This document shows positions 7,004 through 45,237 of a stretch of DNA of 64,000 nucleotides, one piece after another. The notes beneath the pieces are model-generated. The model ran no database searches, had not been told where the DNA came from, and saw only the letters and a program-made list of their open reading frames with translations. The stretch covers positions 50,527 to 114,526 of the forward strand of contig JABLUY010000111.1 of assembly GCA_013306675.1 (NCBI GenBank), given 5' to 3'. The number at the start of each line of letters is the position of its first letter. The first letter of the stretch is position 1. The position numbers and the translations under genes were made by a program. The DNA is from Thraustochytrium sp. TN22. Its lineage: Eukaryota; Sar; Bigyra; Thraustochytrida; Thraustochytriidae.

Positions 7004-7294
7004 TCAAGGATTGACAGCGAGTGCCTTCCCGTTGCCCGTGTTGTACGGTGGCGCGTAGAAGTTCCGCATTGCCGCGCCCTTTTGATAGAAGCAGTATGCC
7101 GCGATGGCGCCCGGAATTGTGATCAGGAGGACGATCACCGCCGCGACGAACTGGTATATCCGGACGATCGTCTCGCCCTCGTCGTCGCCAAGGTCATCGG
7201 GGCCGAAGCTCTGTGCCGTGCTCACCGTGGCCCCGACCAGCAGCAGCCCCAGCGTCCTCCCCAGCGCGCTCACGGTCAGTTTGTTGTGCTGCAT
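7004..7294 (-). CDS. Small single-pass membrane protein with signal peptide
   Basis: This 96-residue protein is not recognised. Residues 1-28 look like a signal peptide (LGLLLVGATVSTAQ) followed by a short acidic ectodomain (DDLGDDEGE). A transmembrane helix follows at about 44-69, and then a short cytoplasmic tail containing YAPPYNTGNG. The layout matches the neighbouring Cys-rich family (signal peptide ending in AQ, short ectodomain, TM, Pro/Tyr tail), but the cysteines are absent, so relationship is only suggested. The ATG lies about 20 bp from a 160-bp pentanucleotide array on its 5' side. The frame continues upstream through that array, but the extra part is repeat-encoded. Confidence 0.55.
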   Translation of the reverse strand: MQHNKLTVSALGRTLGLLLVGATVSTAQSFGPDDLGDDEGETIVRIYQFVAAVIVLLITIPGAIAAYCFYQKGAAMRNFYAPPYNTGNGKALAVNP

Positions 7295-8174
7295 CGGCCC
7301 TGCTGCGAGGCGACTCGCCTCGCCTCGCCTCGCCTCGCCTCGCCTCGCCTCGCTTCGCCTCGCCTCGCCTCGCCTCGCCTCGCCTCGCGTCGCCTCGCGT
7401 CGCCTCGCGTCGCCTCGCGTCGCCTCGCCTCGCGTCGCCTCGCGTTGCCTCGCGTTGCCTCGCCTCGCGTCGCAGTACGCGGCGCTAGCTAGTAGCTGGT
7501 CTGCCTCCCTCTCCCGAGTTGAGACTGCCTGCAAAAGCGTACCGCCGCAGGTGCACGCGCTAACCTGGTAGATAGTGGCTCGGCCAAGCGCTGGACTGGG
7601 TTTGCTACGCGATGCAGACCGCGTTGGCCAAAGCATGGTATGCCGCCTTCCGGGGCGTGCGGTCACGGTAGCGTGGTGCATGTAGTCATGGCGGCCAGAT
7701 GAAGAGTGGTGGGGCCGGGCTTGTTCGACCTTCTTGTAGTAGTTGGCTCGAGAAAGCTCGCACTTCGTCCGCCGTGATTCACGTGCGAGGCGGCGGCGTC
7801 GCACTGCGCGCGCTTCAGCCTGCGCGCGCTGCATCAACAGTGTGGCAACGCCGTGCAACTGACCGGACCAAGCCTGAGAGAGAGATAAACATCTTTCATG
7901 ACTCGGAACGTCTTTTCCTTCCGCCCGCAGCAGCGCGGCCTGCAGCAGGCTGAGCAACTGGCCAGACCGGGCACAGCTCACAAAGTGCATGTAGGCTGGA
8001 ACGCTCAGATCATTGCAGGCTAAGTGGGCTGCACACGTTGGACAAGGTTTGCAGCGGCTGACTGGCGGAGACCAGTGCCACCGCGAAGTTATAGGTCGCC
8101 TGCATGACGCGCAAACGACGCCAAAAGATCATCTTCTTGTCTCGACATGAAAACACGCCAATTGTGTTCACCCT
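7295..8174. other. Intergenic region, no gene seen
   Basis: Apart from the pentanucleotide array at 7315-7473, no coding signal is seen. The region presumably carries the promoter of the 96-residue TM protein and the 3' flank of the next minus-strand gene. Confidence 0.5.
7315..7473. repeat. Pentanucleotide array (CGCCT/CGCGT)n just 5' of a start codon
   Basis: About 30 pentamer units, mainly CGCCT and CGCGT with a few CGTTG or CTTCG variants, form the leader of the minus-strand gene starting at 7294. Read on the gene strand the unit is AGGCG/ACGCG. The five-base period cannot hold a reading frame, so it is probably 5' UTR or promoter. Confidence 0.95.
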
Positions 8175-8708
8175 CTAAGCGGACCACGACGCCTGCGTAT
8201 CTTTGCTCGGGACGATAGTTGCTGTCGGCACACTTGGAAGTCCGGAGGTGGCGGCCGGAGCGGCGGTCCCGCCGGCTGTAGTCGCGTAAGTTGAATTCCA
8301 GCTTGCGACGAATGCAGCTTGCTCATTTCGTTGATGAAGAGTACACATGACGCTGATGACGCCGATGAGTAGAAGAACCCCTCCAAGACACGCGAGGACG
8401 ATGATCAGCAGATTGTCGTACCAATCAATGCCATTTTCCTCCCGACCACACGGGCAACCATTCTTCAGCGGATCAGAGAACCAGGTTTCTTTGCAGTCAG
8501 AGGCATTTCCCGGGCAGCTGCAGCGGTTAGAAACTGAAAGGACGCATGACAAGTCACCAAGGCAACCGTTGAGCTGTGCCCAGCACTCGCATGAGATGTC
8601 GCCAATGTTATCGTACGAGGCTGGACAGTTTTGCGTCGTCGTATTCTGCGCCAGGCTCAGCACAGCCCCGGCCATCAGCAACGCTGCCGTGCGGATCAGC
8701 GCCTTCAT
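8175..8708 (-). CDS. Cys-rich type I membrane protein, family copy b
   Basis: The 177-residue protein is unrecognised but has a clear layout. Residues 1-21 are a signal peptide (ending LSLAQ). The ectodomain has ten cysteines spaced C-x11-CxC-x6-C-x5-C-x7-CxC-x6-C-x12-CxC and includes ISCECWAQLNGC and CSCPGN. A transmembrane helix follows (about 97-120, LLIIVLACLGGVLLLIG), then a Ser/Thr/Pro tail. N-glycosylation sequons (NTT, NAS, NST) are present. A CTCTG-type repeat lies directly 5' of the ATG. The same framework recurs at 9930-10461, 15544-16184, 16807-17246, 18121-18687, 21879-22445 and 23300-23797. A cell-surface receptor, adhesin or cell-wall role is possible but is not shown by the sequence. 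Confidence 0.75.
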   Translation of the reverse strand: MKALIRTAALLMAGAVLSLAQNTTTQNCPASYDNIGDISCECWAQLNGCLGDLSCVLSVSNRCSCPGNASDCKETWFSDPLKNGCPCGREENGIDWYDNLLIIVLACLGGVLLLIGVISVMCTLHQRNEQAAFVASWNSTYATTAGGTAAPAATSGLPSVPTATIVPSKDTQASWSA

Positions 8709-8729
8709 CGCGTCCCGCTCTGCTTCGCA

Positions 8730-8814
8730 CTGCCCTGCCCTGCTCTGCTCTGCTCTTCTCTTCTCTGCTCTGCTTTGCTTTGCCCTGCCCTGCTCTGCTC
8801 TGCTCTGCTCTGCG
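8730..8814. repeat. Pentanucleotide (CTCTG/CCCTG/TTCTC)n array 5' of copy b
   Basis: About 16 imperfect five-base units immediately precede the copy b start codon on its strand. The position relative to the ATG resembles the array at 7315-7473. Confidence 0.93.
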
Positions 8815-9929
8815 CAGCTTTGGAGTCTGCTTGCCCGGCTGGCCGGCCTCAGGCTCGGACGTAGCCCAGGCTGCAGCGGCGGTGCGCGAAGCGATCAACC
8901 TAGAAAATGAGCTCTTGAGCGCGCCGCACACCGGCAACGAACAGCTGCGCCGGAGGCCCGGGAAGTACCACCCTGATTTCACCAAGGGCCCCAGACCGCG
9001 CTGCTCGAGCTGCTCGCGCACAAGTGGCCAAACGCCGCGCCCGAGTTCAAGTTCTGTGGGCACGGACGAGCCGCAGCCAGCCGGAGCGCGGCTCGTCCTC
9101 AGCTCCCCAGGCCGGTAACCGAGCTCCGCAGCCTCCGCTCCAACTTGAAGCCGCCTTCACAGCAGTCAAGGTCCAGCGAGGGCCGGCGTGACTCGCGGGC
9201 GACGCGACGTAGCCCAGAGGACAGCCCACGCCGAGAGATGGCCGCCCGGGACATCGTGCAGTGGCCGCCCGGGACATCGTCATCCGTGCGGGCGCGCGTG
9301 CAGCCTGCCAGTGAGAGATGGCCGTCGGGGACATCGTCATTTTTCCGGGCGCCCGCACGTGCAGTCTGCGTGCAACCTGCGCCTTTGCAGGCTGGCGACG
9401 TGGAGATGATCTCAATCGGCTGCTCGAGGCAGTGGTTCGGGCCCCACGAAGCACGGGCGCATGCGTCGTCGTCGGTCCATCGTCCGGCCCGGGACGAGCC
9501 CTACTGACAGTGAGAGGCAGAAATTGCGGAGCGCACGGCGAATTGGCCAAAGTCGTCTTGAGCTCCGAGTCGGCCCAGGCTCGCGATTCGCCGCCTTTGC
9601 TTTGCAGATGTCTGACTTGCCGGCCTGCGGGACATCGGAGTGTCCAAAGAAGCTGCGCCGCCGCGGGCGTGTCTGGCGTGCATAGCCCGTGCAGCTGCGT
9701 CAGCCTGCGTGAACAAAGTGGCAAACAAGGTTGTCCATACCGTGACATGATGCTGCGTGTTGTGGGGAAGTGAATTCTCTTCTGAAAAATCCCGCAGCCA
9801 AGCAGCGCGGGCTTTGTCCTCGTGGCTTTGGGACCTTCAAAGGAGCTGTCGCTTGCTGGTGCCTTGCGTCGAAGTAGACAGGCAGGCATCGTGGAATGTC
9901 CCTTTGCAAGCTGAGGGCTCCTTGCTTCT
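8815..9929. other. Intergenic region with short local repeats
   Basis: No supported gene. Between about 9225 and 9370 several imperfect copies of a GGCCG(C/T)CCGGGGACATCGTC-like phrase occur in tandem or near-tandem. The surrounding open frames on both strands are low-complexity. Confidence 0.5.
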
Positions 9930-10461
9930 CCCTTGGAACAGACTGGCTGTCGCCTGCAGCAAGTGTGGCTGTCGGGAGTGCACTTGATGAGACCATACTA
10001 GTAGTCGGTGGGTAGCTGCCGAAGGGACCAAAGAGACCAGGTTGAGGATAGATGGCGCCGAGGCTTGCCTGATTCAGACCGCGCATTGGCTTGCATTAGT
10101 GCGAAGTAGGAGGACCACAAACTCGATGGGAGGGACAATGCAAAGGCGAACAACAATCCCCCCCATAATGATGAAGGGCAGCCGCCCAGGGTCGCTCGAC
10201 ATTCTCCGAAGAACGAGTCGCTACCCAAGTCCTGGTCGCATGAACGATCATACCGCTGGAAATTCCTCGCAGGCTGCATGCATTGGAGTGTCGCAGCGGT
10301 TTGATTACAGACACTGCAACGCCGTCCAGGCAACCCATGTGTGCTGCCCAACACTCGCATGAGATCTCGGAGATGAGGGAGGACGACGAGGGCAGTCCTG
10401 CGCCGCACAAAGTGCGGCCCTGGTCACCAGGAGCGCTGCACTGTGCAAGAGCGCCCTTCAT
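9930..10461 (-). pseudogene. Cys-rich membrane-protein family, copy c (frameshifted)
   Basis: Reading from the ATG at 10461 on the minus strand, the family signature ISCECWAAHMGC is present. The signal peptide, second half of the ectodomain, TM segment and tail lie in different frames. Ectodomain text resumes as VCNQTAATLQC in a second frame, and a tail with GSYPPTTSM and ALPTATLA (about 9935-10086) is in a third. The stretch 10091-10461 is nearly identical to 16868-17246 (copy e), whose ectodomain and TM stay in one frame, so at least three indels have broken this copy. It is the left half of a head-to-head pair whose partner, copy d, now lies beyond the hAT element. Confidence 0.75.
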
Positions 10462-10769
10462 CTCAGCTCCCGGGGTACCTAGGCAACGGAAGCCGTGCCA
10501 TCCCATAGCACGCGCGCCCTGCTGTGCCCGGATCTCGCCTTACTTCGCGCAAACGCAGCCGCGGCCGCAGTCGTACGTGCCAGTGCAGGCACAAGCAAGC
10601 CGCAGCTGAGCTGCCCCCGCGCTCGTGCAGCGCCTCGCCCGCCGGCGGTTGCTGGTGCGGCCCAGGACTTTCCAGCGCCGCATTCCAGGCCCTGACCATG
10701 CACTACTACACGCAGTTCAAGTTGAGTACCCCTGGGTACGACTAAGTTATGACCAGCGGCTACCACTGC

Positions 10770-10777
10770 CCGGCGGC
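10770..10777. repeat. 8-bp target-site duplication, left (CCGGCGGC)
   Basis: CCGGCGGC immediately precedes the left terminal inverted repeat and recurs exactly at 15022-15029 after the right one. Eight-base duplications are characteristic of hAT transposition. Confidence 0.93.
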
Positions 10778-10795
10778 CAGACATCACTAGTTGTT
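10778..10795 (+). repeat. hAT left terminal inverted repeat
   Basis: CAGACATCACTAGTTGTT pairs with the reverse complement of 15004-15021 at 15 of 18 positions. The outer eight bases are identical. Confidence 0.9.
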
Positions 10796-11013
10796 GAACC
10801 TTTCCGTCTGTGATAATCCTACCGGACTTGTTTATCCAGGTTTGTCCGACTCCGTCCGCTTCATGACAGAAGGGGAAGGATATACTTTCCCGGACCTGGT
10901 CGTGGAAAGACGCGGAAAGATTGTCGAGGCGCCGAGTCTTGGGTTGGACGCACTCGGACGGAAGCTGTGGGCATTGGCTGTGGATAAGTCGGAATTCCGG
11001 AACTTCTGGTCCA

Positions 11014-14000
11014 ATGACGAAAGTCCGGGGCCGGTGGTTGAGCTGCGGCGCTGCGACGCTGCGGCTGGTGGTTAAGCTCAGCCTGCAAACCGTCAAAGGC
11101 GTCGCGGCAGCCGCGTCTGCAGCGGCGGTGGCGGTGGCGGCGGCGGTGACGGCGGCGGCGGCGGTGGCGGTGGCGGTGGCGGCGGCAGCGGCTGCGACAG
11201 CAGCGGGGCCGCAGGCTGAGGCGCCGATGGGTACATGCGGAGCCCAGTCCGTGGTTGCACTGGTTGGCTCAACCTCGACTCCAAGACCGATGAGCCTGAG
11301 CGACAACGACGGCAGCGACGACAGCGACGATGACGACGGCGTCGGCCGCGACCTTGTTGGCGAACAAGGAGACAGTTCTCAGGGTAGATCAAGCCCCTCC
11401 GTGCTGTCCACGTCGGAGCCAGGCTCTGATGCTGCCGCTAAAACGTGCGGCAGTCCAGCGACTGCGAGCTCAGGCGGGAACTCGGGCTCGGATCTGATAT
11501 CAACATCTAGTAGCTCGTCCTCCCAAGCGAAAACGACGGACCACACCAACCCGGGGTCCTGGGCGACATATTTTGGAGGCATGAAGCGGAAGCCGACGAA
11601 GAAGGTTCAGGCCGTGAAGCCGAAGCGGCTGAAGTCGTCAAAGGCCCAGGCGAAGACCGGAGCCACGGCCAACGAGGTGACACCGAAGCAAGGCACGTGC
11701 CGGAAGAACGAGCGCATGGACCACAAGCAGTACGTCCAGATTGCAATCGATCATGACCTTGTCGAGATCAACCCGGCCGAGGAAGGCGACTCCCACGTGT
11801 GCAAGGTGTGTAACCAGCCTCAAAGCTGGAGCACGAACCGTGCGAACTGCTACCGTCACTTCAAGCGCTGTCACAAGGAGCATCACGGGCTCGTGCTCAA
11901 GGCGATCGAGGAGCTCGCGTCCAGGATCGAGGCCGAGGTTGACGCCGAGGTCGAAGCGAAGCTGGTCCGGGCTCAACAGACGTTTGGCAACTCGAAGCGC
12001 CCGGCGGCAACCCTTCGCGAGCGGCGCTTGCTCAACATCGAGTTCACGCGCATGATCATCGACGCCAGCCTCCCGTTCAGCCATGGTAGGCTGCCTTCGC
12101 TGCGTAGGTGGGTGAGTCTGATGTGCCCATTTGACTACACACCGCCCGTTGAGAGCACCGTGAAGGAGATCATGCATGCCGAGAAGACCTGTATGGTGCA
12201 GTCTATGTACGCGAGCATCAGGGCGTTGTGCGACCGCGCGGGGCTGCCACGGCTTGTCCTGCAACACGACGCCTGGAGCAGCTACAAAGGTGACTCCTTC
12301 CTAGGGATCCAGCTTCGCTGGCTGGACGATTGGAAAGTGCGCGTCATGACTCTCGGCATGGACCCCTTCAACGAGAAGCACACCGGCATGAACATCGCGC
12401 AGCGCCTGCGCGAGACCGTTTCAGATCTGCTCAACGACGCCTCTGCCGACGCGGAAGCGACTAGCCAGGACGCGGAGGAAGACGACGAAAACCAGGAGGT
12501 TGGCAGCGTCGTGGAGGATGCAAAGTTCAAGAAGCAGGTGGCCGCGGTCATCTCAGACGGCGCAAGCAACTGCATCGCCGCAAACGAGGCGCTGGGCGTG
12601 CCATACGAGCATTGCGCTGCGCATCGACTCAACCTCTGCGTGCAGCACGCCTTCGGCTTCCTCATCAGCTCCAAGCTGACCAACGAGCTGCTGCAGACCG
12701 TCGGCCTGACCGGCCTCAAGGATGTCGACGAGCTCGCCGATGCCATGGGCCCAGAACTCGAGGCGAGTGCGGTGCCAACCGCGGACTCACTCGTGCGGAT
12801 GTTCGCCCTCACAACGACTTCACAGGGCACGGCATCCAGCGTGGATGTCGACCAGCACAACCTGCACCAGCTCTGGGAGATCTCGGCAGGAATTTACGGC
12901 GCCCCGTCCCAGCAAGCGCCACTTGACGACCTTCGCAGCGATATCATCGCCAAAAACGTCTCCTACGAGTTCTTTGAAGAGCGCGGCCGTCAGGCCGCAC
13001 GCGTCTTGCAAGGAGGCGAGACGATATGGACGAACGAGAAGCGCGTGCTTACGACGCTAGTAGCCCGAATTAAGCTGCGCAACAGCTTCTTGACGCGCTC
13101 ACATGTCGCCGCGAACGCGCTGACGGCTATCTGCAAGGTACTCGGAATCAAGAAGACCCGGGCGCCACGCGAATGCGCGACGCGCTGGAGCGGCTTCCTG
13201 TCGCTCGTCGAGTTTCATGCTACAGTGTGGCCCGCCTTCGAGCTGCTCATCTCAACAAAGAAGGACATCAAGAACTGCAAGTGGATCAACAAGGCTCAGC
13301 AGGAGACGATCATGAAGATCGCTGAGCGCATCACCTGCTCAGGCAGGTTCGATAAGATGAGCGCGCTGCGCGCCACGGGCGACGAGGAGCTCATACTCCC
13401 GGAACTTCAGCAACTCCTGTCGCAGACCTACCGCGTGCAAGCCTTTGCGCAGCGCTTTCACAAAACGCGCGCGCAGATCTTCGTCGCTGTGGAGGGCCTC
13501 AAGGGTGCTCTCTACGACTCCTACAACGTCGTCTCATCGCAGAGCGTGAAGGCGGCGATCAAGCTCCGCGGCGACATCTCGTCCAGCACCATGGCAGAGG
13601 CGAACCTCGAGCCCGAGGCGCGCACAATCAAATTCCTGAAGCTTCACCCCGTGACCCGCATGGTCGCGCACCGCCTCGTTGCCTTCCTGGACCGGTACTT
13701 CGACCCGCTTTGGACATCACCCAAGGGTTCCGATGCGAGGCCCGGCACAGACCCAGCATCAATCATGCTCGCCCTCGAGATCCCTTTTCGCTCGACGCAG
13801 CTGCCTCAGATGCTCCTCGCCCGCGCATCCGTTCTTATCTGCGTCGGCCGTGCTGAGCTGCTGCGCGAAGTCGCATTCGGTCGTTCTGTGGGGCTGCGTG
13901 GCTTCGGCTCGGAGGTGGACGGCCTGAGGAGGATGCACGAGAATGCGTTGACCAAGCCTATCCTGCTTGGTCTGATGAAGACGGTCGCTAACACCTGCCA

Positions 14001-14715
14001 GAGCAAGATCAAGGATCGATCTTTCATCGCACGGGACTTCATCGAGAGCCAGGTCATGGAGCTCATCGTCGAGGAGCTACTGAACGAGGAGCCGCCGACA
14101 CCTGAGGTCTGCACAACGCCAGACACATTCCCAAACGATTATACCTTGGGCGACAGCGACAGGTCTGGCGACAATGAGGACGAGGTTCTGGACGACTTCA
14201 TCTTCAAGGTGGTACCCATCTCGCCGGCCTCTCTGACCCACGCGGACACCGACCGTACCAAAAGCACCCGAGAGAGAGCCAAGGAGGTGGCTTCGCGCGA
14301 GCTATCCTTTATTCGCGAGGAGACCCGCAAGATGGAACAGAACGAGTCGCGGAATCTACAAGGTATGACGTATTCGAAGCTGTGGTCCTACTCAATGGAT
14401 TGCACAGAAGCCAGCCTGGGCAAGGACATCAGCACCAAATGGTTCAAGACCTACGAGAGCCACGTCAAGCACGTTGCAATGGTCTTTGCGCACAACTACG
14501 TGGTCGATCCAACGACCTGCTCAACCGAGAGCATGTTTAGTACTGTGGCGCTCGCGCAGAGCCAGCGCCGCAAGGGCCGACTTCTCTCCCAGAGCCTGTC
14601 TACGTACGCCTTCCTTAGGAACAACGGGTCCAACCTCTGCGACAGCACCGAAGTCCTCCGGCACATCGAGGCGACTGCGAAGAATCGTGTTCGCGCTCCC
14701 CAAGTAAAAAATTAA
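11014..14715 (+). CDS. hAT-family transposase with BED-type zinc finger
   Basis: Up to 1,233 residues are read without interruption. The N-terminal part is Ala-rich and then acidic/Ser-rich (DDSDDDDG). A BED-like finger lies at about 260-295 (HVCKVCNQPQSW...CYRHFKRCHKEHH). The RNase H-fold core shows LQHDAWSSYKG (about 417), VISDGASNC (about 513) and CAAHRLNLCVQ (about 534). These match the hAT DxW, DxAxN and CxxHxxNL blocks; a domain rich in helices follows. The C-terminal hAT dimerisation region is at about 1130-1220, with STESMFSTVALAQSQRRKGR and ending in FLRNN. The start is uncertain: in-frame ATGs are at 11014, 11227 (best context) and 11290, while the longer frame from 10921 opens with TTG. 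No host-gene function is implied. Confidence 0.9.
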   Translation: MTKVRGRWLSCGAATLRLVVKLSLQTVKGVAAAASAAAVAVAAAVTAAAAVAVAVAAAAAATAAGPQAEAPMGTCGAQSVVALVGSTSTPRPMSLSDNDGSDDSDDDDGVGRDLVGEQGDSSQGRSSPSVLSTSEPGSDAAAKTCGSPATASSGGNSGSDLISTSSSSSSQAKTTDHTNPGSWATYFGGMKRKPTKKVQAVKPKRLKSSKAQAKTGATANEVTPKQGTCRKNERMDHKQYVQIAIDHDLVEINPAEEGDSHVCKVCNQPQSWSTNRANCYRHFKRCHKEHHGLVLKAIEELASRIEAEVDAEVEAKLVRAQQTFGNSKRPAATLRERRLLNIEFTRMIIDASLPFSHGRLPSLRRWVSLMCPFDYTPPVESTVKEIMHAEKTCMVQSMYASIRALCDRAGLPRLVLQHDAWSSYKGDSFLGIQLRWLDDWKVRVMTLGMDPFNEKHTGMNIAQRLRETVSDLLNDASADAEATSQDAEEDDENQEVGSVVEDAKFKKQVAAVISDGASNCIAANEALGVPYEHCAAHRLNLCVQHAFGFLISSKLTNELLQTVGLTGLKDVDELADAMGPELEASAVPTADSLVRMFALTTTSQGTASSVDVDQHNLHQLWEISAGIYGAPSQQAPLDDLRSDIIAKNVSYEFFEERGRQAARVLQGGETIWTNEKRVLTTLVARIKLRNSFLTRSHVAANALTAICKVLGIKKTRAPRECATRWSGFLSLVEFHATVWPAFELLISTKKDIKNCKWINKAQQETIMKIAERITCSGRFDKMSALRATGDEELILPELQQLLSQTYRVQAFAQRFHKTRAQIFVAVEGLKGALYDSYNVVSSQSVKAAIKLRGDISSSTMAEANLEPEARTIKFLKLHPVTRMVAHRLVAFLDRYFDPLWTSPKGSDARPGTDPASIMLALEIPFRSTQLPQMLLARASVLICVGRAELLREVAFGRSVGLRGFGSEVDGLRRMHENALTKPILLGLMKTVANTCQSKIKDRSFIARDFIESQVMELIVEELLNEEPPTPEVCTTPDTFPNDYTLGDSDRSGDNEDEVLDDFIFKVVPISPASLTHADTDRTKSTRERAKEVASRELSFIREETRKMEQNESRNLQGMTYSKLWSYSMDCTEASLGKDISTKWFKTYESHVKHVAMVFAHNYVVDPTTCSTESMFSTVALAQSQRRKGRLLSQSLSTYAFLRNNGSNLCDSTEVLRHIEATAKNRVRAPQVKN

Positions 14716-15003
14716 GAACATTTCCACCTTGAGAAGTACCACGCATCCACCCACCTACGAACTCGGGATAAACGCGGAAAGGCCCGGTCGCGCTGGTGAA
14801 TCTTGGGGGACTCGGACGGAGCCGCTTCGCAATGGGCCTTCACTGGAGAAGCTTGGAAAGACTCGTGCGTGCTCCATCGATCGTTTGGAGAGACACGGAA
14901 AGATACACTCCCCTGTACGCGAACACGGATTGAGAATGACGGAGAGATTGTGGGGAGTGTGGGCCGCTGAGGGAGACGGACTTGGCTCAGAGGCGAGTCC
15001 GCT

Positions 15004-15021
15004 AATAACTTGCGATGTCTG
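15004..15021 (-). repeat. hAT right terminal inverted repeat
   Basis: The reverse complement reads CAGACATCGCAAGTTATT and pairs with 10778-10795. It is followed at once by the CCGGCGGC duplication. Confidence 0.9.
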
Positions 15022-15029
15022 CCGGCGGC
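15022..15029. repeat. 8-bp target-site duplication, right (CCGGCGGC)
   Basis: Exact copy of 10770-10777, directly after the right terminal inverted repeat. The flank then continues into the copy d promoter region as at the paralogous locus near 17577. Confidence 0.93.
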
Positions 15030-15339
15030 CAGCGCCGGCCGCGTGCGGCGCGTGGCACTGCCAGCAGGGCGTGAAGAACCGGCCGGAACCTCGAAACCAA
15101 GCTGGCGCCGCGGTGCAACGCGGCGCGCGCGTCGGCGACTCCGCCGAGTCGCAGGCGACGCCAGGCGAGGTCGCGGCGGCGGTAGAACTACCCGGCCGCA
15201 CCCGGCATTCAACACGCGCGTGCAGCGGCGGCGTCGCGGCCGCTCGCAGCCGTGGCCGCCAGCGCAGCGGCGATAGCGCTTCAAGCTTGGACTTTCACTC
15301 CCGAGTCCAGTAAGTTAGGGCTACGGGCTACTACACTGG

Positions 15340-15368
15340 CACGTACGCGTGCACGTGCACGTGCACCT
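15340..15368 (+). promoter_or_regulatory. CACGTG palindrome array upstream of copy d
   Basis: GTGCACGTGCACGTGCAC contains two overlapping CACGTG (E-box-type) palindromes about 180 bp before the copy d ATG. An equivalent array stands at 17911-17930 upstream of copy f. A diverged one (GTGACGTGGACGTGCACC) is near 21690 upstream of copy g. CACGTG is a common bHLH/bZIP target; regulation by it is inferred. Confidence 0.45.
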
Positions 15369-15509
15369 GACGGCGGGCGCCCACTCACCGCCGGCGCGCT
15401 GGCCGCGCAGTTCCGGTTCGGAGTCTGGCGTGGCGCCCGCGACCACGGCGCTGCGACTGCGGCAGAGAGAGGGGGGCGCGCGAGCAGCGCAGCGCCCGCC
15501 CTGCGCGTC

Positions 15510-15541
15510 GAGGCGGGGCGGCGAGGCGAGGCGGCGCGGCA
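15510..15541. repeat. GGCGA/GGCGG-type leader repeat of copy d
   Basis: A degenerate GGCGA, GGCGG and GGCGC run ends three bases before the copy d ATG. Equivalent, length-variable runs precede copies f (18067-18119) and g (21846-21875). Confidence 0.8.
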
Positions 15542-15543
15542 CC

Positions 15544-16184
15544 ATGCAGGCGACGAGGACGCCCGTGTCCTTGCTGTCTGCGGCGCTGCTGCTGTCCCTG
15601 GCTGTGCTCAGTGCGGCGCAGGACTCGGAATGCCCGGAATCGTACACTAGCATCTCTAGCATCTCGTGCGATTGCTGGGAAGAGCTCAACGGGTGCGTCA
15701 GCGAATCTGCTTTTTGTGGTAGCTTATTTTTAACCGGTGCGACTGCCCAGGAGACGCCAAAACCTGCATAGAAGACGCGGACGGACCTACGGCGTGGCCT
15801 TGCCCCTGCGGAACAACGGACGATGAGGACTACTACCTCCTCATCATCATCATACCAGTAGCCATTTCTGTGGCCGGATTGTTCGTCGTGGGCTTTTATT
15901 GCTTTTGGCTCGGGGGTCTACGTTCATCAAACGCTGGTGCCGTCGGTACGAACCTGCCGTGTTATTGCTTTTTGCTCCCGGGTCTACGTTCATCAAACGC
16001 TGGTGCCGTCGGTACAAGCCTGCCGACGGCAACCGTAGACGGTGGCGTCCCTTTAACAGTGACCGCTTGGCCCGCGGGCGGGAGCTATCCTCCTGCCGGA
16101 TCGTTCGGACCTCCCGCCATCGCTACGGCAACGCTCGTTCCTGACACGTCCGCATCGGGAAAGCCGCAAGTATCTTCGTTTTGA
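15544..16184 (+). pseudogene. Cys-rich membrane-protein family, copy d (frameshift, internal duplication)
   Basis: The first 55 or so codons give an intact signal peptide (PVSLLSAALLLSLAVLSAAQ) and ISCDCWEELNGC. Near 15721-15735 a net 2-base gain relative to copy f moves the rest to another frame, and the original frame stops at 15771. The shifted frame continues with CDCPGD, PCPCGTTDDEDYY, a TM helix and the Pro-rich tail GGSYPPAGSFGPPA to the stop at 16184. A 66-bp in-frame tandem duplication (units at 15896-15961 and 15962-16027) doubles the juxtamembrane segment RSSNAGAVGT. It is the partner of copy c in the split head-to-head pair. A sequencing error at the shift is possible, but the surrounding divergence suggests a real change. 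Confidence 0.75.
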
Positions 16185-16194
16185 CTTCGGGCGT

Positions 16195-16806
16195 TTGGCC
16201 AGCCCTAGTTACCGCCGAGCCGCATTGGCTGCTAGCGATCTCGCTTGCACCGCAAGTCGCGCGACGCACATGAAGAAGAAATTTCTAAAAAATGTGAGTG
16301 AATTGATCTTGAAGTCGAAGCGCCGCCCGCGCTGGTCACTCTCGCGCGTACCGCCGTGCTCGCCGCCTGGCGGCGGTTCCGTCGGTTCTCAGCGTCTCTC
16401 TGCAACCAGTTGCCCAACATGAAGCTGCGTAGTCTCAACGTGTCAGGCTCAGCAACCTGGCGGCATGCTACAACCTAGAAAGGGCGCGGCCAAACGGCTG
16501 GGCCCAGGGGTTGGACTGCCTGATCGTGGTACGGGACTAGGACCAGGGCGTTATGGGGTCTCGGACGTAGCCTCTTCATTGTCAGCGCGCATCGCCAGCC
16601 AAAGTTGCCCGTGGCTCGTTGCGAGTGCTGTTGCGTTCAAACGTGGTGGGGCTGGACATTCTTCGACATTCTTCGATCTGATCATGATGTCTCAGCTCAT
16701 CCGAAGCATGGAAACCTCGAATACGAATGTCCAGAAAGAGGGTCTGCACCGCAAGCCAGGTTAGCTTTTGAGGGCTTCGGAATCATCCAGACAGACACCT
16801 GCGGGA
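16195..16806. other. 3' flank of copy d, duplicated downstream of copy g
   Basis: No gene. About 600 bp are closely similar to 22440-23103. This includes the segment around CCGCCTGGCGGCGGTTCC, the phrase with GGGACTAGGACCAGGGCG, and a local repeat of ATCATCCAGACAGAC at about 16788-16820. It marks the extent of the duplicated block. Confidence 0.8.
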
Positions 16807-17246
16807 TCATCCAGACAGACACGCGTATCGGGATGATGGAGCGCATCTACATGGAGTTGTTAGGCTCACATTAGTGCGAAGTAGGAGGACCACAAACTCG
16901 ATGGGAGGGACAATGCAAAGGCCAACAACAATCCCCCCCACAAAGATGAAGGGCAGCCGCCCAGGGTCGCTCAACCATTCCTCAAAGAGCGAGTCGCTAC
17001 CCGAGTCCTGGTCGCATGAACGATCATACACCGTTGGAAATTCCTCTGCATGCATCGGACAAAGGACAGTCGCAGCGGTTTGATCGCAAACACTTGCAAC
17101 GCCGTCCAGGCAACCCATGTGTGCTGCCCAACACTCGCACGAGATCTCGGAGATGAGGGAGGACGACGAGGGGCAGTCCTGCGCCGCACAAAGTGCGGCC
17201 CCGGTTACCAGGAGCACTGCACTGTGCAAGCAACAGCGCCCTTCAT
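16807..17246 (-). pseudogene. Cys-rich membrane-protein family, copy e (start out of frame, tail lost)
   Basis: The ectodomain and TM frame (signal-like SAVLLVTGAALCAAQ, ISCECWAAHMGC, TM IFVGGIVVGLCIVPPIEFVV) is open for 140 codons but begins only at a TTG. The ATG at 17246, equivalent to the copy c start, is out of frame and its frame stops after 13 codons. Right after the TM the homology to copy c ends (about 16868), and the frame runs into the duplicated 3' flank of copy d, so the Pro-rich tail is missing. One CxC pair is changed to CPM. A non-ATG start cannot be excluded, but a recent pseudogene is more likely. Confidence 0.65.
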
Positions 17247-18120
17247 CTCAGCTCCCGGGGTAGCTAGGCTACGGAAGCCGTGCCACCCCATAGCACTCGC
17301 GCCCTGCTGAGCCTGGGTCTCGCCTTCCTTCGCGCAAACGCAGCCGCGGCCGCAGTCGTACCGTGACGTGCCAGTGCAGGCACAAGCAAGCCGCAGCTGA
17401 GCTGCCCCCGCCCTCGTGCAGCGCCTCGCCCGCCGGCGGTTGCTGGTGCGGCCCAGGACTTTCCAGCGCGCATTCCAGCCTGAGCACTCACTAGTACATG
17501 CAGTTGTGGTACGGTACCGTGACTGTGACTACCCCACGGTACGACTAAGTTATGATCAGCGGTGACGGCTACCACTGCGGCCGGCGGCCGCGTGCGGCGC
17601 GTGGCACTGCCGGCAGGGGGTGAAGAACTGGCCGGAACCCCGAAACAAAGCTGGCGCCGCAGAGCCACGCGGCGCGCGCGCCGACTCCGCCGAGTCGCAG
17701 GCGACGCCAGGCGACGTCGCGGCGGCGGTAGTAGTACTACCCCGGCCGGCCGCACCCGGCATTCAACACGCGCGGCGTGCAGCGGCGGCGTCGCGGCCGC
17801 TCGCAGCCGTGGCCGCCAGCGCAGCGGCGATACCGCTTCAGCTTGACTTTCACTCTCCGCCGAGTCCAGTCAGACTCCCCTCCCACTTGGCCTAGGGCTA
17901 CTACACTTACGCGTGCACGTGCACGTGTACCTGGCGCCCATTCACTGCAGTGGCGCGATGGCCGCGCAGTTCCGGTTCGGAGTCTGGCGTGGCGCCCGCG
18001 ACCACGGCGCTGCGACTGCAGAGAGAGGAGGACGCGCGAGCAGCGCAGCGCCCGCCCTGCGCGTCGAGGCGGCGCGGCGAGGCGGCGCGGCGAGGCGGGG
18101 CGGCGAGGCGGCGCGGCACG
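17247..18120. promoter_or_regulatory. Shared divergent promoter of the copy e / copy f pair
   Basis: About 870 bp separate the head-to-head starts. The same sequence is found split at 10462-10777 and 15022-15543, about 840 bp when rejoined across the hAT element. It contains a CACGTG array (17911-17930) and the GGCG-rich leader repeat (18067-18119). Coordinated expression of the pair is inferred from the arrangement only. Confidence 0.5.
17911..17930 (+). promoter_or_regulatory. CACGTG palindrome array upstream of copy f
   Basis: GCGTGCACGTGCACGTGTAC lies about 190 bp before the copy f ATG. It corresponds to the array at 15340-15368. Confidence 0.45.
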
Positions 18121-18687
18121 ATGCAGACGACGAGGACACCCGTGTCCTTGCTGTCTGCGGCGCTGGTGCTGTCCCTGGCTGTGCTCAGTGCGGCGCAGGA
18201 CTGGGACTGCCCGGGAACGTACGCTAGCCTCACTAGCATCTCGTGCGATTGTTGGGCAGCGCTCAACGGGTGCGACGGCGAGTTTCTTACTTGTAGTGGC
18301 AACTTCAACTGGTGCAGCTGCCCAGGAGGCAGTGACGACTGCATAGAATACGCGGCTCAACCATCGGCTCGGCCTTGCCCCTGCGGAACAACGGACGTTG
18401 AGGACTACCTCCTCATCATCGTCCTGCCAGTAGCCTGTGTGGCCAGCTTGTGCCTCGTGGGCTTTTGTTGCGTTTGCACCCATGTCGTACGTTCATCAAA
18501 CGCTGGTGTCATCGGTACAAGCCTGCCAACTGCAACCGTAGACGGTGGCGTCCCTTCAGCAGTGACCGCTTGGCCCGCGGGCGGGAGCTATCCTCCTGCC
18601 GGATCGTTCGGACCTCCCGCCATCGCTACGGCAACGCTCGTTCCTGACACGTCCGCATCGGGAAAGCCGCAAGTAACTTCGAATTGA
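18121..18687 (+). CDS. Cys-rich type I membrane protein, family copy f (intact)
   Basis: This 188-residue protein is the best-preserved plus-strand member. It has a signal peptide (residues 1-26, LLSAALVLSLAVLSAAQ) and a ten-cysteine ectodomain spaced C-x11-CxC-x6-C-x6-C-x6-CxC-x6-C-x11-CxC (ISCDCWAALNGC, CSCPGG, CPCGTTD). A TM helix follows (about 92-120, LLIIVLPVACVASLCLVGFCCVC) and then a tail with AWPAGGSYPPAGSFGPPA. No database family is recognised. The even number of cysteines and signal peptide suggest a disulfide-bonded extracellular module. The ATG follows a GGCGA/GGCGC repeat and is supported by copy d. The nearest relatives here are copy g (about 90% by eye) and copy d. Confidence 0.8.
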   Translation: MQTTRTPVSLLSAALVLSLAVLSAAQDWDCPGTYASLTSISCDCWAALNGCDGEFLTCSGNFNWCSCPGGSDDCIEYAAQPSARPCPCGTTDVEDYLLIIVLPVACVASLCLVGFCCVCTHVVRSSNAGVIGTSLPTATVDGGVPSAVTAWPAGGSYPPAGSFGPPAIATATLVPDTSASGKPQVTSN

Positions 18688-19004
18688 CTTCGGGCGTGAG
18701 GCCAACTCTAGCTACCGCCGAGCCGCATTGGCTGCTAGCGATCTCGCTTGCACCGCAAGTCGCGCGACGCACATCATAAAGAAGAAGCCTTTTTCTTGAA
18801 ACACCTCCGCCCAGAAAGTTTACCAAAACTGTTTACCCCAACTTAAACACGGCTCTGGAGGCCATGTTTTTAGAAAACACTGTGGCCGGTAAACTAAACA
18901 CCGTGTAAACACGGTGTAAACACGGTCAAGCCTGTTCACCGGATGTGTGGATCCGGTATTTCAAAATGGTCCAAATTCGCGATCGATGAAACCAAAAAAG
19001 CACG
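18688..19004. other. AT-richer segment with inverted and direct repeats
   Basis: After the copy f 3' flank the base composition drops sharply from about 18775. At 18815-18935 there are repeated GTTTACC/GGTAAAC words in both orientations. A direct repeat of GTGTAAACACGG occurs, and an imperfect hairpin runs from GGCCATGTTTTTAG to AAAACACTGTGGCC. This may be an edge of inserted foreign DNA or a regulatory segment of the pseudogene that follows. Confidence 0.5.
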
Positions 19005-19533
19005 ATGACAGACCACACAACAAAGATACAACCGAATGAGAATGACCTTTACGAAACGCCAACGACCACTTTGGAAATGATGTTGGAACACCTTGATGCG
19101 AAACAACACTTCTTGTGGAAGCCCTTTGTTGGGACTGGCCACTCTACAAAGCCGTGACTTTCAGCCAGGTGACCAACGGCGACCACCCGGATTTCTTCAA
19201 GCAGTCTGTCCCAGTGGCGCCATTAGGGATGAAGACGGTGTTGATTAGCAATCCGCCCTTCAGCATCAAGAGGCAGATTCTCGCTCATCTCGAGTCACTT
19301 GGCATGCACGACACAGCCTTGTTGCTGCCAACTCCAGTTTCACCAAGTACTTTTATGACTTTGTACACAAGCACCACGTCCAGCTCATGGTCCACACCAA
19401 ACGGTGCGCCTTTCCAGTTCCACAAACAGGTAAGCCCGGTGGGTTGATGTGGCATGGATTTGTGTTGGACTTGCACCAACCCGTGACATCAACTTTCCAT
19501 CATCAGCCAGTCACCAACCACGCTGGAGCCATC
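19005..19533 (+). pseudogene. DNA N6-adenine methyltransferase-like pseudogene (frameshifted)
   Basis: Three overlapping frames together resemble a DNA adenine methyltransferase of the NPPF type. Frame 1 runs from an ATG at 19005 to a TGA at 19155 and ends in WKPFVGTGHS, like an SAM-binding FxGxG loop. Frame 2 (to about 19330) carries VLISNPPFSIKRQIL, the catalytic (D/N)PPF motif. Frame 3 continues after about 19330 with YFYDFVHKHH and KRCAFPVPQTGKPGG. At least two frameshifts separate them. The codon use is much more A/T-rich than neighbouring genes and the enclosing island has lower GC, which suggests acquisition from a virus or bacterium. The family assignment rests on the two short motifs and overall order. 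Confidence 0.6.
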
Positions 19534-19645
19534 CATGTCGCTCACCACCGCGGCGCCGAGCAAGGGGCCCACCAAGGCCCCGAGCGGTTCGCCCGTGCCT
19601 GTCGTCACCATCGGCTGACACAACTTATCGTTTGCTTATCTAGGC

Positions 19646-21592
19646 CTACTTGCCCTTGCCACCTCCAAAGAGGAAGCTGGCGAGTTTCTTCTGCGCTGCA
19701 GTGGCGGCCTTGAGCTTCCCCGGCGGCCTGGGGGCTTCCTGGGCGACGGTGATGCCAGCAGCCCTGTCAGCGGCAGCGTACACCTCGATGCGTCTGTCCA
19801 CCTCAGCGGGGGCGAGGCCAAAGTCAGAGAGCACGGACCGCGAGTAGGCCGGGTATCCCTTCTCGGGGTTGTCGCTGGCGACCAGGCCCATCGTCGGTGC
19901 GTCGCCGGTTTCTTCCAAGAAGGTGTCCCACCACACGCTGCGGATGGCAACGGCGTCGGCGAGGTCGGTTCGGCCCGCGCCACGCAGCGCCGCCGCGGTG
20001 CGTGTGCCGACGTCGTGGGCGTTCGTGTACGCATCGTCCACAAAGACCACCGTCACCCCACTTCTTGTTGTCGTTTCGGAGGGGAAGAGGCTGTCCAGAG
20101 CGTGAGCAACGGCCATCGGCTTTTGATAGTCCGCCGCGTAGAGTCGCGCGTTGGTCGCTCTGGCCAGGGGCACGTCGCCGAACGAGATTTCCTCCGCACT
20201 GACAACAGCGTCGTCCTCCTCTTCTTGCTGGGGAAGGAAGAAGGGTCCGATCTCCTTCTGTGGGCCGCGGAGCGAGGCAACGAGCTGCTGCACCACGAGC
20301 GCTCGAGGGGACCTCGCTGTGACGATGAAGAGCGGCACCTGGGCCTGGTGAAGACGGGCCAGCCCTTGCACAGTGGCGTCCCCGCCGCGCACGCGCTTGC
20401 CCAGGGCCGTCTCCGTGGGGAGCGCGAACCCGTTGGTCAGCGTGCGGTCAAAGTCGAAGAAGACGACCAGCGGCTCGTCCACCGGCAGCGCCTGCAGCAT
20501 CGCCCCGCATCCGCCGGCGCCCTCGATGCGTTGGAACGTCACGTTCTTGTCGCTTTCAGACGACGATGATGCTGATGCTGATGATGACGTAAGCAAGGCG
20601 CCCGTCGCAAGTGCTTCCTCGACAATGGCAAACACCTCGGTCATGAAGTCCACTGCCACGCAGTCCAAGCTGGACTCCCACACGGCGCTGTCGGATGGCC
20701 CCATGTCCTCCACTCGGGCCCGCAGTTCGACAAGGCGCTGCGGCGTCAGGTGCGAGCGGATTCGCCCCAACCCTTGCACCATGCCTTCGGCCAGGGTCTC
20801 GAGCTGCTCGGACTCACCCCCTGCCAGGGTGGCCGCCTTGGAGCCGAGACTGCGCAGCGTGGCCTCGAGCCCGCGCAGCAGCGACTGCCGGGACTGGAGG
20901 AGGGAGTGAACACGCCGCAAGAAGCCGTCTCGGATCTGCGGGTCTGTGGGGCTGCTGCCCACGTTGTCCACGGCGACGATGGCGCCGTCGCCAGAGTCCG
21001 ACATCATCACGTTGGCCAGGTTGCCGCTGTTGCTCCACAGGTCGCCCACCGGCACGCGGTCCCCGTTGTGCAGGAGCACGTCCAGCGCCAGCAACAGCCC
21101 GATTCGACGCAACGCCGAGCGGCCGATCGCGCCGCTGGCGACTTGCGGCAGGACGGTATAGCCGGCGGCCACCTCCATGACGAGCAGCAGGTTCTGCTTG
21201 AGGTAGGTCCAGGAGACGATGCCGTGCTCGTACGTGTTGGGCGTCAGCAGCGCCGACACATGCTCGCGAATGTCGGCGTGCTCGGGCTCGCCCGGCGAGA
21301 CCAGCCGGCAGCGCGGTACGCTCACGCCCATCTCCGGCGCGGCCAGGCTCGCGAAGAGCTCCTGCGCCGGGTTCGCCGTCGCCTTGATCACCACTACACC
21401 GCGCCCCTCCACGTGCACGAGCAGCACGCCCGAACGCCCTGCGTCGAGCAAATCCAGGCTCAGCAGCGCGCTGCGGCTCCAGTCCACAGCCCCATCCCCG
21501 TCCAGGCTCGCGGGCGGGTGATCCGACACCAGCTTGCGCGCAGGCCGCACGTTGGGCTGCCCGGTCTCAACCACTGCCCACCGCTTCGCCAT
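19646..21592 (-). CDS. Actin-fragmin-kinase-like domain fused to a HAD-type hydrolase
   Basis: The 648-residue protein begins with a region like the atypical actin-fragmin kinase catalytic domain. It has VVVIKATAN with a likely nucleotide-binding Lys at 70, LLVMEVAAGY as hinge, ALDVLLHNGDRVPV (169-182) as catalytic loop and IVAVDNVGSS with Asp209 as metal ligand. Helices at 215-330 and a Ser/Ala linker follow. The C-terminal third is HAD-like: FFDFDRTLT at 378-386 (motif I), LFIVTARSP as motif II, and TVVFVDDAYTNAHD as motif IV. The kinase phosphorylates actin in Physarum; the substrate here is unknown. The open frame extends upstream to 22102, but that part is antisense to family copy g. The ATG at 21592 is chosen. 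The stop lies just beyond the methyltransferase pseudogene. Confidence 0.75.
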   Translation of the reverse strand: MAKRWAVVETGQPNVRPARKLVSDHPPASLDGDGAVDWSRSALLSLDLLDAGRSGVLLVHVEGRGVVVIKATANPAQELFASLAAPEMGVSVPRCRLVSPGEPEHADIREHVSALLTPNTYEHGIVSWTYLKQNLLLVMEVAAGYTVLPQVASGAIGRSALRRIGLLLALDVLLHNGDRVPVGDLWSNSGNLANVMMSDSGDGAIVAVDNVGSSPTDPQIRDGFLRRVHSLLQSRQSLLRGLEATLRSLGSKAATLAGGESEQLETLAEGMVQGLGRIRSHLTPQRLVELRARVEDMGPSDSAVWESSLDCVAVDFMTEVFAIVEEALATGALLTSSSASASSSSESDKNVTFQRIEGAGGCGAMLQALPVDEPLVVFFDFDRTLTNGFALPTETALGKRVRGGDATVQGLARLHQAQVPLFIVTARSPRALVVQQLVASLRGPQKEIGPFFLPQQEEEDDAVVSAEEISFGDVPLARATNARLYAADYQKPMAVAHALDSLFPSETTTRSGVTVVFVDDAYTNAHDVGTRTAAALRGAGRTDLADAVAIRSVWWDTFLEETGDAPTMGLVASDNPEKGYPAYSRSVLSDFGLAPAEVDRRIEVYAAADRAAGITVAQEAPRPPGKLKAATAAQKKLASFLFGGGKGK

Positions 21593-21878
21593 CGCTTCGT
21601 CGTAGTAGGTCTGCCTGCCTGCCGAGTGCCTCTCCTGCAGGACCTGCCTGCACTGCCTGACATCGGCCAGCGCGCGACTTGGTGCACCGTGACGTGGACG
21701 TGCACCTACCTGGCGGCGCCCACTCACAGTGGCGCGCTGGCCGCGCAGTTCCAGTCCGGAGTCTGGCGTGGCGCCCGCGACCACGGCGCTGCGACTGCAG
21801 AGAGAGGAGGACGCGCGAGCAGCGCAGCGCCTGCCCTGCGCGTCGAGGCGGGGCGGCGAGGCGAGGCGGCGAGGCACA

Positions 21879-22445
21879 CTGCAGGCGACGAGGACGCCCG
21901 TGTCCTTGCTGTCTGCGGCGCTGCTGCTGTCCCTGGCTGTGCTCAGTGCGGCGCAGTACTGGGACTGCCCGGGAACGTACGCTAGCCTCACTAGCATCTC
22001 GTGCGATTGTTGGGCAGCGCTCAACGGGTGCGACGGCGAGTTTCTTTCTTGTAGTGACAACTTCAACTGGTGCAGCTGCCCAGGAGGCAGTGACGACTGC
22101 ATAGAATACGCGGCTCAACCATCGGCTCGGCCTTGCCCCTGCGCAACAACGGACGATGAGGACTACCTCCTCATCATCGTCCTGCCAGTAGCCTGTGTGG
22201 CCGGCTTGTGCCTCCTGGGCTTTTGTTGCGTTTGCACCCAGGTCGTACGCTCATCAAACGCTGGTGCCATCGGTACAAGCCTGCCGACGGCAACCGTAGA
22301 CAGTGGCGTCCCTTCTGCAGTGACCGCTTGGCCCGCGGGCGGGAGCTATCCTCCTGCCGGATCGTTCGGACCTCCAGCCATCGCTACGGCAGCGCTCGTT
22401 CCTGACCCGTCCGCATCGGGAAAGCCGCAAGTATCTTCGGGTTGA
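21879..22445 (+). pseudogene. Cys-rich membrane-protein family, copy g (start codon lost, otherwise open)
   Basis: From 21879 the frame encodes the same signal peptide, ten-Cys ectodomain (ISCDCWAALNGC, CSCPGG, CPCATTD), TM helix and GGSYPPAGSFGPPA tail as copy f, without stops. The position equivalent to the initiator reads CTG (ACTGCAGGCG) instead of ATG. The frame is open upstream to an in-frame ATG at 21729 within the former leader. That would add 50 basic and Ala-rich residues before the signal peptide. It is either a start-loss pseudogene or a gene using CTG or the upstream ATG. Its leader ends about 100 bp from the divergent actin-fragmin-kinase-like gene, apparently a duplication breakpoint. 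Confidence 0.6.
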
Positions 22446-23299
22446 CGCTACCGCCGAGCCGCATTGGCTGCCAGCGAGCGATCTCGCTCACACCGCACGT
22501 TGCGCGACGCACATGAAGAAGAATCTTTTTGTGAGTGAGTTGATCTTGAATGCGAAGCGCCGCCCGCGCTGGTCACTCTCGCGCGTACCGCCGTGCTCGC
22601 CGCCTGGCGGCGGTTCCGTCGGTTCTCAGCGTCTCTCTGCAACCAGTTGCCCAACATGAAGCTGCGTGGTCTCAACTTGTCAGGCTCAACATGAAGCTGC
22701 GTGGTCTCAACTTGTCAGGCTCAGCAACCTCGCAGCATGCTACAACCTAGCTAGAGAAATGGCGCGGCCAAACGGCTGGGCCCAGGGGTTGGACTACCTG
22801 ATAGTGGTACGGGACTAGGACCAGGGCGTTATGAGGTCTCGGACGTAGCCTCTTCATTGTCAGCGCGCATCGCCAGCCAAGGTTGCCAGTGGCTGGTTGC
22901 GAGTTGCTGTCGCGTCCCTTCGTGGCGGGGCGGGACACTCTTCGATCTGATCATGATGTGTCATGTGTCAGCTCATCTGAAGCATGGAAACCTCGAATAC
23001 GGATGTCCAGGAAGAGGGTCTGCACCGCAAGCCAGGTTAGCCTTGAAGAGGGCTTTGGAATCATCCAAACAGACTCCTGCGGGATCATCCAGACAGACAC
23101 CAGTTCCTACAAAAGCCATGGCAAGTACTGCCCTTCCGTATGAACCGCATTTCAAGACGTTGGAACTACGGTCTCGCCACAGTCGTGCAACGGGCAGCTT
23201 TGGTTTGCTTGCGCCGGAACAAGGCCTGCTCGCTGCGCCCTCTGCGTGGAGGAGTGACGGTAGGGACGAACAAGGATTCGAGCAAACGCTTATTTTTTA
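22446..23299. other. 3' flank of copy g, duplicated copy of 16195-16806
   Basis: No gene. The block to about 23103 parallels the flank of copy d. A 36-bp tandem duplication (22652-22687 and 22688-22723, AACATGAAGCTGCGTGGTCT) occurs in this copy only. The remaining 200 bp precede the stop of copy h and show nothing recognisable. Confidence 0.75.
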
Positions 23300-23797
23300 T
23301 TAAAATCCTTTCCCTTCTTCGTGCTCAGCCTGGCCACCATCCGTGACGGCAGCCTCTGGTTGCTTGTTGCGCAGTCCCTGGCGAGTGCGGATCGCCCTGA
23401 AGCAAAAGAACAGCACGGCGAGCGCGCTGAGCCCGCCCACGACGCCGTACACGATGACCATGGGGAATGCGGTGTAGCATGGACAGTTCTTCGACCTTCC
23501 GTTCATGTCTTCGATGCATGTCTTATCCCCGAAGAGCGAGCCGCTGCAGACGCAAGACCGCTCCGCCGTGCCGTCCGCACATTCGACCTGCGCTGTGTCG
23601 CAGTTTACGATGTTTGCCCAGCACTCGCATGCCACCTCTGTCACATTCGTGTACTCAGTGTCAGCCGTACACGTCTGCGCTCGTGCCGTCTGCGGCGCCT
23701 GCAGCAGCACCAGCAGCACCAGCACCAGCACCAGCCGCTGCAGCTGCTGCAGCAACAGCAGCGACGACAGCCCCTTCCTCTGCGCGACGTGTGCCAT
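23300..23797 (-). CDS. Cys-rich type I membrane protein, family copy h (divergent)
   Basis: This 165-residue protein has a long hydrophobic signal peptide with Leu/Val runs (residues 9-40, ending TARAQ). Its ten-cysteine ectodomain is spaced C-x13-CxC-x6-C-x6-C-x8-CxC-x9-C-x10-CxC (VACECWANIVNC, CVCSGS, NCPCY). A TM helix follows (FPMVIVYGVVGGLSALAVLFF) and then a charged tail ending HEEGKGF. It keeps the CxCW core and final CxC but is far diverged from the b/f types, so it is an older member. NVT is a likely N-glycosylation site. The ATG at 23797 is chosen because it precedes the signal peptide; the frame stays open to 24181 without homology. Confidence 0.7.
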   Translation of the reverse strand: MAHVAQRKGLSSLLLLQQLQRLVLVLVLLVLLQAPQTARAQTCTADTEYTNVTEVACECWANIVNCDTAQVECADGTAERSCVCSGSLFGDKTCIEDMNGRSKNCPCYTAFPMVIVYGVVGGLSALAVLFFCFRAIRTRQGLRNKQPEAAVTDGGQAEHEEGKGF

Positions 23798-45061: not shown

Positions 45062-45237
45062 AGACGCCGCCCGCAGTGCACTGCCCGCTCGCGTCTGCGA
45101 ACATGTGGGAGCGCGCGCTCCCGACGGCGCCCACCTCTCTCACTCACTCACTCACTCATTCACGCGGCGCGCCAGCGCGGCGCGGCGCAGCGCGGGGCGC
45201 GGCGATCGAAACGGTGCGCCGCGAGCGGGACGCCGCG

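Follow-up and report, generated by a model that had tools for sequence, protein, structure and literature searches.

A cluster of ten-cysteine, predicted type I membrane proteins at a single locus of Thraustochytrium sp. TN22

Animal proteins of the Shisa/STMC6 type carry a Cys-rich ectodomain after the signal peptide, a single transmembrane (TM) segment and a Pro-rich cytosolic tail, and the VSPs of Giardia are long, CxxC-rich proteins. Here we describe a cluster of related copies, b to h, that encode or once encoded small Cys-rich proteins of comparable layout in a 64,000-nucleotide stretch of Thraustochytrium sp. TN22 DNA (assembly GCA_013306675.1, contig JABLUY010000111.1, positions 50,527 to 114,526, hereafter the window). 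The cluster proteins are like the Shisa/STMC6 type in their single TM segment, their Cys-rich ectodomain and their Pro-rich tail, but differ from it in Cys spacing, in the lack of a Pfam match in the ectodomain (copies f, b and h) and in their occurrence at one locus of a protist. They can also be likened to the multi-copy Cys-rich surface proteins Ser of Tetrahymena (PMC4136848) and VSP of Giardia (PMC2996952), of which the Ser proteins are linked to glycosylphosphatidylinositol (PMC4136848). Unlike Ser and VSP, the cluster family has a head of about 60 residues with three CxC pairs, followed by a TM segment and without a Pfam match.

The sequence family and its architecture

Seven family copies were found in the window by translating the intervals in three frames together with the listing of open reading frames (ORFs), in agreement with the earlier reading of the sequence alone (the sequence-only reading). 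They lie on both strands (Table 1). Intact frames with an ATG start were found only in b, f and h. In copy g, the CTG at the start position is the homologue of the ATG codon in f and d, and the stop-to-stop frame contains no ATG along its whole length. The frame shift of copy d is located between 15723 and 15729, in the ectodomain, and its 66-bp tandem duplication at 15896-16025. The start, ectodomain, TM segment and tail of c and e never occur together in one frame, and the frame of e with the ectodomain and TM segment has no ATG at its head. The predicted presence of several pseudogenes was borne out by c, d and e, as was the spread from copies of about 90% identity to a distant h, with protein identities to f of 91% for g, 44% for b and 26% for h.

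The ten-Cys spacing C-x11-13-CxC-x6-C-x5-6-C-x6-8-CxC-x6-9-C-x10-12-CxC, searched for in open frames, occurs in the unbroken frames of b, f, g and h (four of the seven copies) but not within one frame in c, d or e, and it was absent from every frame when the window was mononucleotide-shuffled 40 times. All ten ectodomain Cys residues are retained in these four copies despite the low identity of b and h to f, and the ectodomain alignments f-b, f-h and b-h each outscore all 2000 shuffles. The proposed signal peptide and single TM segment are consistent with the hydrophobicity of the four copies tested (b, f, g and h), all of which have a signal-peptide-like first peak and one later peak; by eye, the latter is preceded by acidic or neutral residues and followed by Arg or His. 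The proposed core IS-C-(D/E)-CW-xxLNGC held in part. ISC[DE]CW is present in six copies, and LNGC in four of the seven (b, d, f and g), replaced by HMGC in c and e and by IVNC in h, whose core VACECW hence falls outside the pattern. The tail motif GSYPP, expected in most copies, was found in c, d, f and g (4/7) and not in b, e or h.

The whole assembly of the strain (37.9 Mb, 453 contigs) was searched for further members. A protein search with b gave ten matches, eight in the cluster and two elsewhere (contigs C199 and C404, E-values 0.058 and 0.10), and the searches with f and h gave eight and six matches, all within the cluster. We rejected the two outside matches as relatives because their translations lack the ten-Cys spacing; three loci outside the cluster (L010, L011 and L027, holding the matches on C199, C404 and a third contig, C397) gave no spacing match after translation. 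Over all 41 loci, the spacing was matched 26 times in 21 loci, many of them overlapping each other and all on C13, the contig of the cluster. A degenerate DNA pattern for ISC[DE]CW had six matches in the assembly, corresponding to b, c, d, e, f and g, and its reversed control had none. Since the six core-pattern matches all lie in the cluster, to which h is added, the family consists of seven copies at one locus, for uninterrupted genes at this search sensitivity.

No strong match to a known domain family, the outcome that the sequence-only reading had named as speaking against its view, was found in Pfam or NCBIfam, and its impression that the proteins belong to no recognised named family stood within the libraries searched. 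For the f, b and h ectodomains, no Pfam family matched at E-values up to 10; Shisa, Frizzled-type, EGF, elicitin, CFEM and VSP were the families considered by name. Full-length proteins gave only Pfam matches below the curated cut-off (FtsX, E 0.0095, and New_glue, E 4.3, for b; DUF1180, E 0.031, for h; none for f), which fall partly or wholly outside the ectodomain. NCBIfam gave no match for the family proteins, and PHROGs gave weak matches in the TM regions of b and h and none for f. Against the sequences of solved structures, two family profiles containing 4 and 8 related rows matched best to DPB11 in both cases (E 1.9 and 0.28), whereas as single queries f had no match, b matched integrin beta-3 in the TM region (E 1.1), and the best matches of h were the Cys-rich extracellular chains of thrombospondin-1 (E 1.1) and LRP2 (E 4), at chance level. 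No relative was confirmed among 44 pattern stretches in viral contigs or 13 in prokaryote genome contigs, and none was found in a phage collection queried with f only. The ectodomain modelled alone reached moderate confidence (predicted local distance difference test (pLDDT) 76.3, predicted template modelling score 0.67); comparison of this model with solved structures and viral models by Foldseek, plus VIA-align, found no significant match, which does not imply a novel fold. Narrow literature searches aimed at such surface proteins brought up no description of a similar family in the portions of the sources retrieved. These results support a ten-Cys, putative type I membrane family without a known name within the profile, structure-sequence, viral, phage and prokaryote libraries searched.

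Table 1. Positions of the cluster copies, duplicated blocks, transposon-like element and associated features (window coordinates unless a contig is given)
Feature	Position	Strand	Description
96-aa ORF	7004..7294	minus	signal-peptide-like start and one hydrophobic segment; no Cys-rich head
Copy b	8175..8708	minus	intact ATG-started frame of 177 aa with signal peptide, ten-Cys ectodomain and a single TM; GSYPP absent from the tail
Copy c	9930..10461	minus	broken by frame changes; still recognisable by the core ISCECW and by GSYPP and LPTATL in the tail
Duplicated block with c	10088..10778		87% identical to 16863-17589 (holds e) over 730 columns
Target-site duplication, left copy	10770..10777	plus	CCGGCGGC, 8 bp
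hAT-like transposon	10778..15021	plus	4244 bp; ends CAGACATC/GATGTCTG; one 1233-aa frame 11014-14715; between c and d
Target-site duplication, right copy	15022-15029	plus	CCGGCGGC, 8 bp
Duplicated block with d	15033..16822		aligned to 17582-18783 (f) and, from 15348, to 21688-23100 (g)
Copy d	15544..16184	plus	frame change within the ectodomain; 66-bp internal tandem duplication
Copy e	16807..17246	minus	broken paralogue of c; some Cys lost; GSYPP tail gone
Empty site	17581..17588	plus	single CCGGCGGC in the paralogous e/f interval, which lacks the element
Copy f	18121..18687	plus	intact ATG-started 188-aa frame; every family feature present
Copy g	21879..22445	plus	open frame; 91% protein identity to f; CTG at the start position
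Copy h	23300..23797	minus	intact ATG-started 165-aa frame; most diverged; without GSYPP
Frames of the other full element copies	C13:3932-7630, C15:98362-102060, C101:30692-34390, C32:46871-50569

Duplication history and the hAT-like element

Self-comparison of positions 4000-27000 (hits of at least 80 bases at E-values up to 1e-6, excluding repeats at 7200-7520) revealed six duplicated blocks, one shared by c and e, two by d and f, two by d and g, and one by f and g. Copies b and h share no DNA-level block with the others. Two pairs of genes, c with d and e with f, are arranged head to head. The block holding e adjoins that of f, whereas the corresponding blocks of c and d are kept apart by a 4244-bp element. 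Since the e/f blocks abut while the element parts c from d, the two pairs descend from the duplication of a divergent pair, and one of them was split later. The copies of the cluster were evidently made by segmental duplication, including that of this divergent pair.

Transposons of the hAT group are defined by a target duplication of 8 bp, short inverted ends that begin with CAG and one long frame. The element between c and d shares all three features with them but differs in that its 1233-aa protein matches no transposase profile: the whole protein matched no Pfam family at E-values up to 0.01 and no solved structure at E-values up to 10, and two pieces of it searched against Pfam at E-values up to 10 gave a single match below the cut-off (Island, E 0.12). 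Size, ends and target duplication of the element fit a hAT element. Six long copies of the frame, including that of the window, are present in the assembly; their protein sequences are 100% identical in three copies, 97% in two and 89% in one, which contains one TGA. Five of the six (L030, the window copy, and L031 to L034) have the 8-bp target duplication and short terminal inverted repeats; the exact left end was looked for and not found in the sixth (L035). These five full copies are of equal length, each with its own 8-bp target duplication, and the four others differ from the window copy by 1, 2, 49 and 51 bases. The element has evidently been active recently, and its insertion into the c/d pair appears to be recent.

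Selection, decay and the proposed nature of the family

We tentatively propose, with confidence that stops a little short of even, that the small type I membrane proteins of this one locus form a family that is apparently restricted to its lineage and probably resides at the cell surface, with a head that binds a ligand, a cell or the matrix. The signal peptide would take each full copy into the secretory route, where the head of about 60 residues would fold, held by up to five disulfides. The protein would span the membrane once, leaving the short Pro/Thr/Ala-rich tail to face inside and, possibly, to recruit a partner. The cell surface is the most likely place, where the head may bind a ligand, a neighbouring cell or the wall or matrix; the proteins may act as receptors or adhesins. 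Segmental duplication, partly of a head-to-head gene pair, enlarged the cluster, which is now losing copies.

The proposal is backed by the retention of all ten Cys in b, f, g and h, the two hydrophobic peaks, the confinement of the core-pattern matches to the cluster, the duplicated blocks with their empty site, the ectodomain model and the lack of gaps in codons 2-188 between f and g. Comparison of the more distant copies suggests past, long-term constraint. Between b and f, the rates of nonsynonymous (dN) and synonymous (dS) change were 0.52 and 1.57 by NG86 and 0.55 and 1.34 by YN00, and the resulting dN/dS of 0.33-0.41 is only rough because dS is near saturation (17.7 by maximum likelihood), which itself weakens the proposal. 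Third codon positions differ most between b and f (67, 52 and 90 differences at positions 1, 2 and 3 in 156 codons) and between b and h (72, 61 and 87 in 134 codons). Several further observations speak against the proposal. Third positions do not exceed first positions between f and h (82, 69 and 78 in 135 codons), and f and g are near neutral (dN 0.044, dS 0.042; codon-position differences 11, 4 and 7). The GC content at third codon positions (GC3) of b, f and g is 0.62-0.66, below that of four neighbouring frames (0.70, 0.79, 0.85 and 0.86), to which only h (0.78) is similar. The full-length model is poor (pLDDT 39). Given the missing ATG of g, the broken state of c, d and e and the near-neutral change between f and g, some of the copies may be dead.

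The last of these points, together with the low GC3 of f and g, would also be expected of a dying family in which only b and/or h work and c, d, e, f and g are neutral relics, their diversity reflecting decay, an explanation that we regard as somewhat unlikely. It agrees with an f-g dN/dS of about 1 and with the outcome of eight one-sided tests for an excess of replacements between recent copies, none of which was significant. Replacement and silent changes between f and g numbered 5 and 0 in the ectodomain (p 0.316), 11 and 1 in codons 1-121 (p 0.18), 7 and 5 in the tail (p 0.892) and 18 and 6 over all codons (p 0.57). Over its first 57 codons, d gave 18 to 3 against f (p 0.196) and 17 to 2 against g (p 0.105), and codons 27-57 of d gave 16 to 2 with f and likewise with g (p 0.269 each). 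What argues against simple decay is the distribution of gaps between f and g: of ten gaps in the aligned unit, nine are non-coding, one is at the start codon and none falls in codons 2-188, leaving 187 indel-free codons common to both copies against nine flank gaps, three of which lie within a GC-rich repeat array (18059-18117) that may slip easily. A fair reading of the f/g pair is that of a maintained open frame in which recent amino-acid changes show little, if any, sign of purifying selection. The f-g comparison demonstrates neither diversifying selection nor decay, and the suggestion of the sequence-only reading that these are fast-evolving surface or recognition genes is unproven, with one-sided p-values of 0.105-0.892 in the eight comparisons. 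The bolder version of our proposal, a new disulfide-rich extracellular domain, seen to date at one locus of one protist genome and serving as a diversifying surface recognition head for partner cells, prey or substrate, or viruses, under birth-and-death turnover that includes head-to-head pairs, is graded as quite improbable.

Two further explanations bear on the identity and the location of the proteins. Small Cys-rich domains diverge quickly, and the family could belong to a known family of disulfide-rich domains from which it has strongly diverged, with a kinship too faint to be seen from four full sequences. The small size of the search profiles and the position of eukaryotic proteomes outside the libraries searched leave room for such a kinship, as do the non-significant matches of h to thrombospondin-1 and LRP2; set against the empty Pfam, NCBIfam and structure-sequence searches, we consider it fairly unlikely. 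An intracellular single-pass protein of the endoplasmic reticulum, Golgi, vesicles or ectoplasmic net, whose luminal Cys-rich head acts as a cargo receptor or scaffold, would have the same anatomy, and sequence does not decide between surface and endomembrane. This location appears improbable to us, since no retention signal was recognised when the C-termini were inspected by eye. As a kind, the lineage-restricted, tandemly duplicated and partly decaying Cys-rich membrane family proposed here is a fairly ordinary one.

Neighbouring frames and significance of the cluster

The 96-aa ORF next to the cluster had been suggested as a possible Cys-less relative, which was not supported: it resembles b in the signal peptide only (score attained by 3 of 1000 region-preserving shuffles), and its similarity to f, g and h is at chance level (223, 450 and 639 of 1000 shuffles). 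Its Pfam matches, DUF7176 (E 0.0025) and Pox_I5 (E 0.0075), are both below the cut-off, and its match elsewhere in the genome, on C397 (E 0.048), was rejected after translation for lack of the ten-Cys spacing. A plus-strand neighbour at 5439-6941 matches calcineurin-like phosphoesterases (E 2e-6). On the minus strand, the long frame at 19646-22102 matches the actin-fragmin kinase catalytic domain (E 2e-20), and copy g, on the opposite strand, overlaps the upstream part of this frame. GC-rich tandem arrays with units of 5, 10 or 13 bases (7314-7473, 8717-8813, 15505-15540, 18059-18117, 21840-21875 and 31468-31510) end 3-19 bases upstream of start codons, namely those of the 96-aa ORF, of copies b, d and f, of g (with its CTG) and of an unrelated frame of 1955 aa. 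Of the remaining four among the ten arrays examined, one stops 8 bases ahead of a 230-aa frame and one 27 bases ahead of a 112-aa frame, and two have no frame within 60 bases. As tested, this association with starts is not significant, since 38% of positions chosen at random also have an ATG frame of 80 aa no more than 60 bases away. A 159-bp unit is present in two tandem copies with 95% matches at 44744-45063.

The DNA is 66% GC and rich in long uninterrupted ORFs. A PfaD-type profile with a cut-off of 449 bits scored 668 bits in a 2083-aa frame and 661 bits in one of 1719 aa and matched weakly at two other places; among 14 control genomes it matched in three, above the cut-off in one. The two large frames resembling polyunsaturated fatty acid synthases, the GC content and the long ORFs presumably fit a thraustochytrid lineage. 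Searches with two patterns for ribosomal RNA had no match.

The cluster cleanly documents duplication, decay and the recent insertion of a transposon, together with a paralogous empty site, and the family deserves a name. If the proteins are expressed at the surface, they would constitute a compact and testable receptor or adhesin family for this protist lineage, perhaps with a new small disulfide fold.

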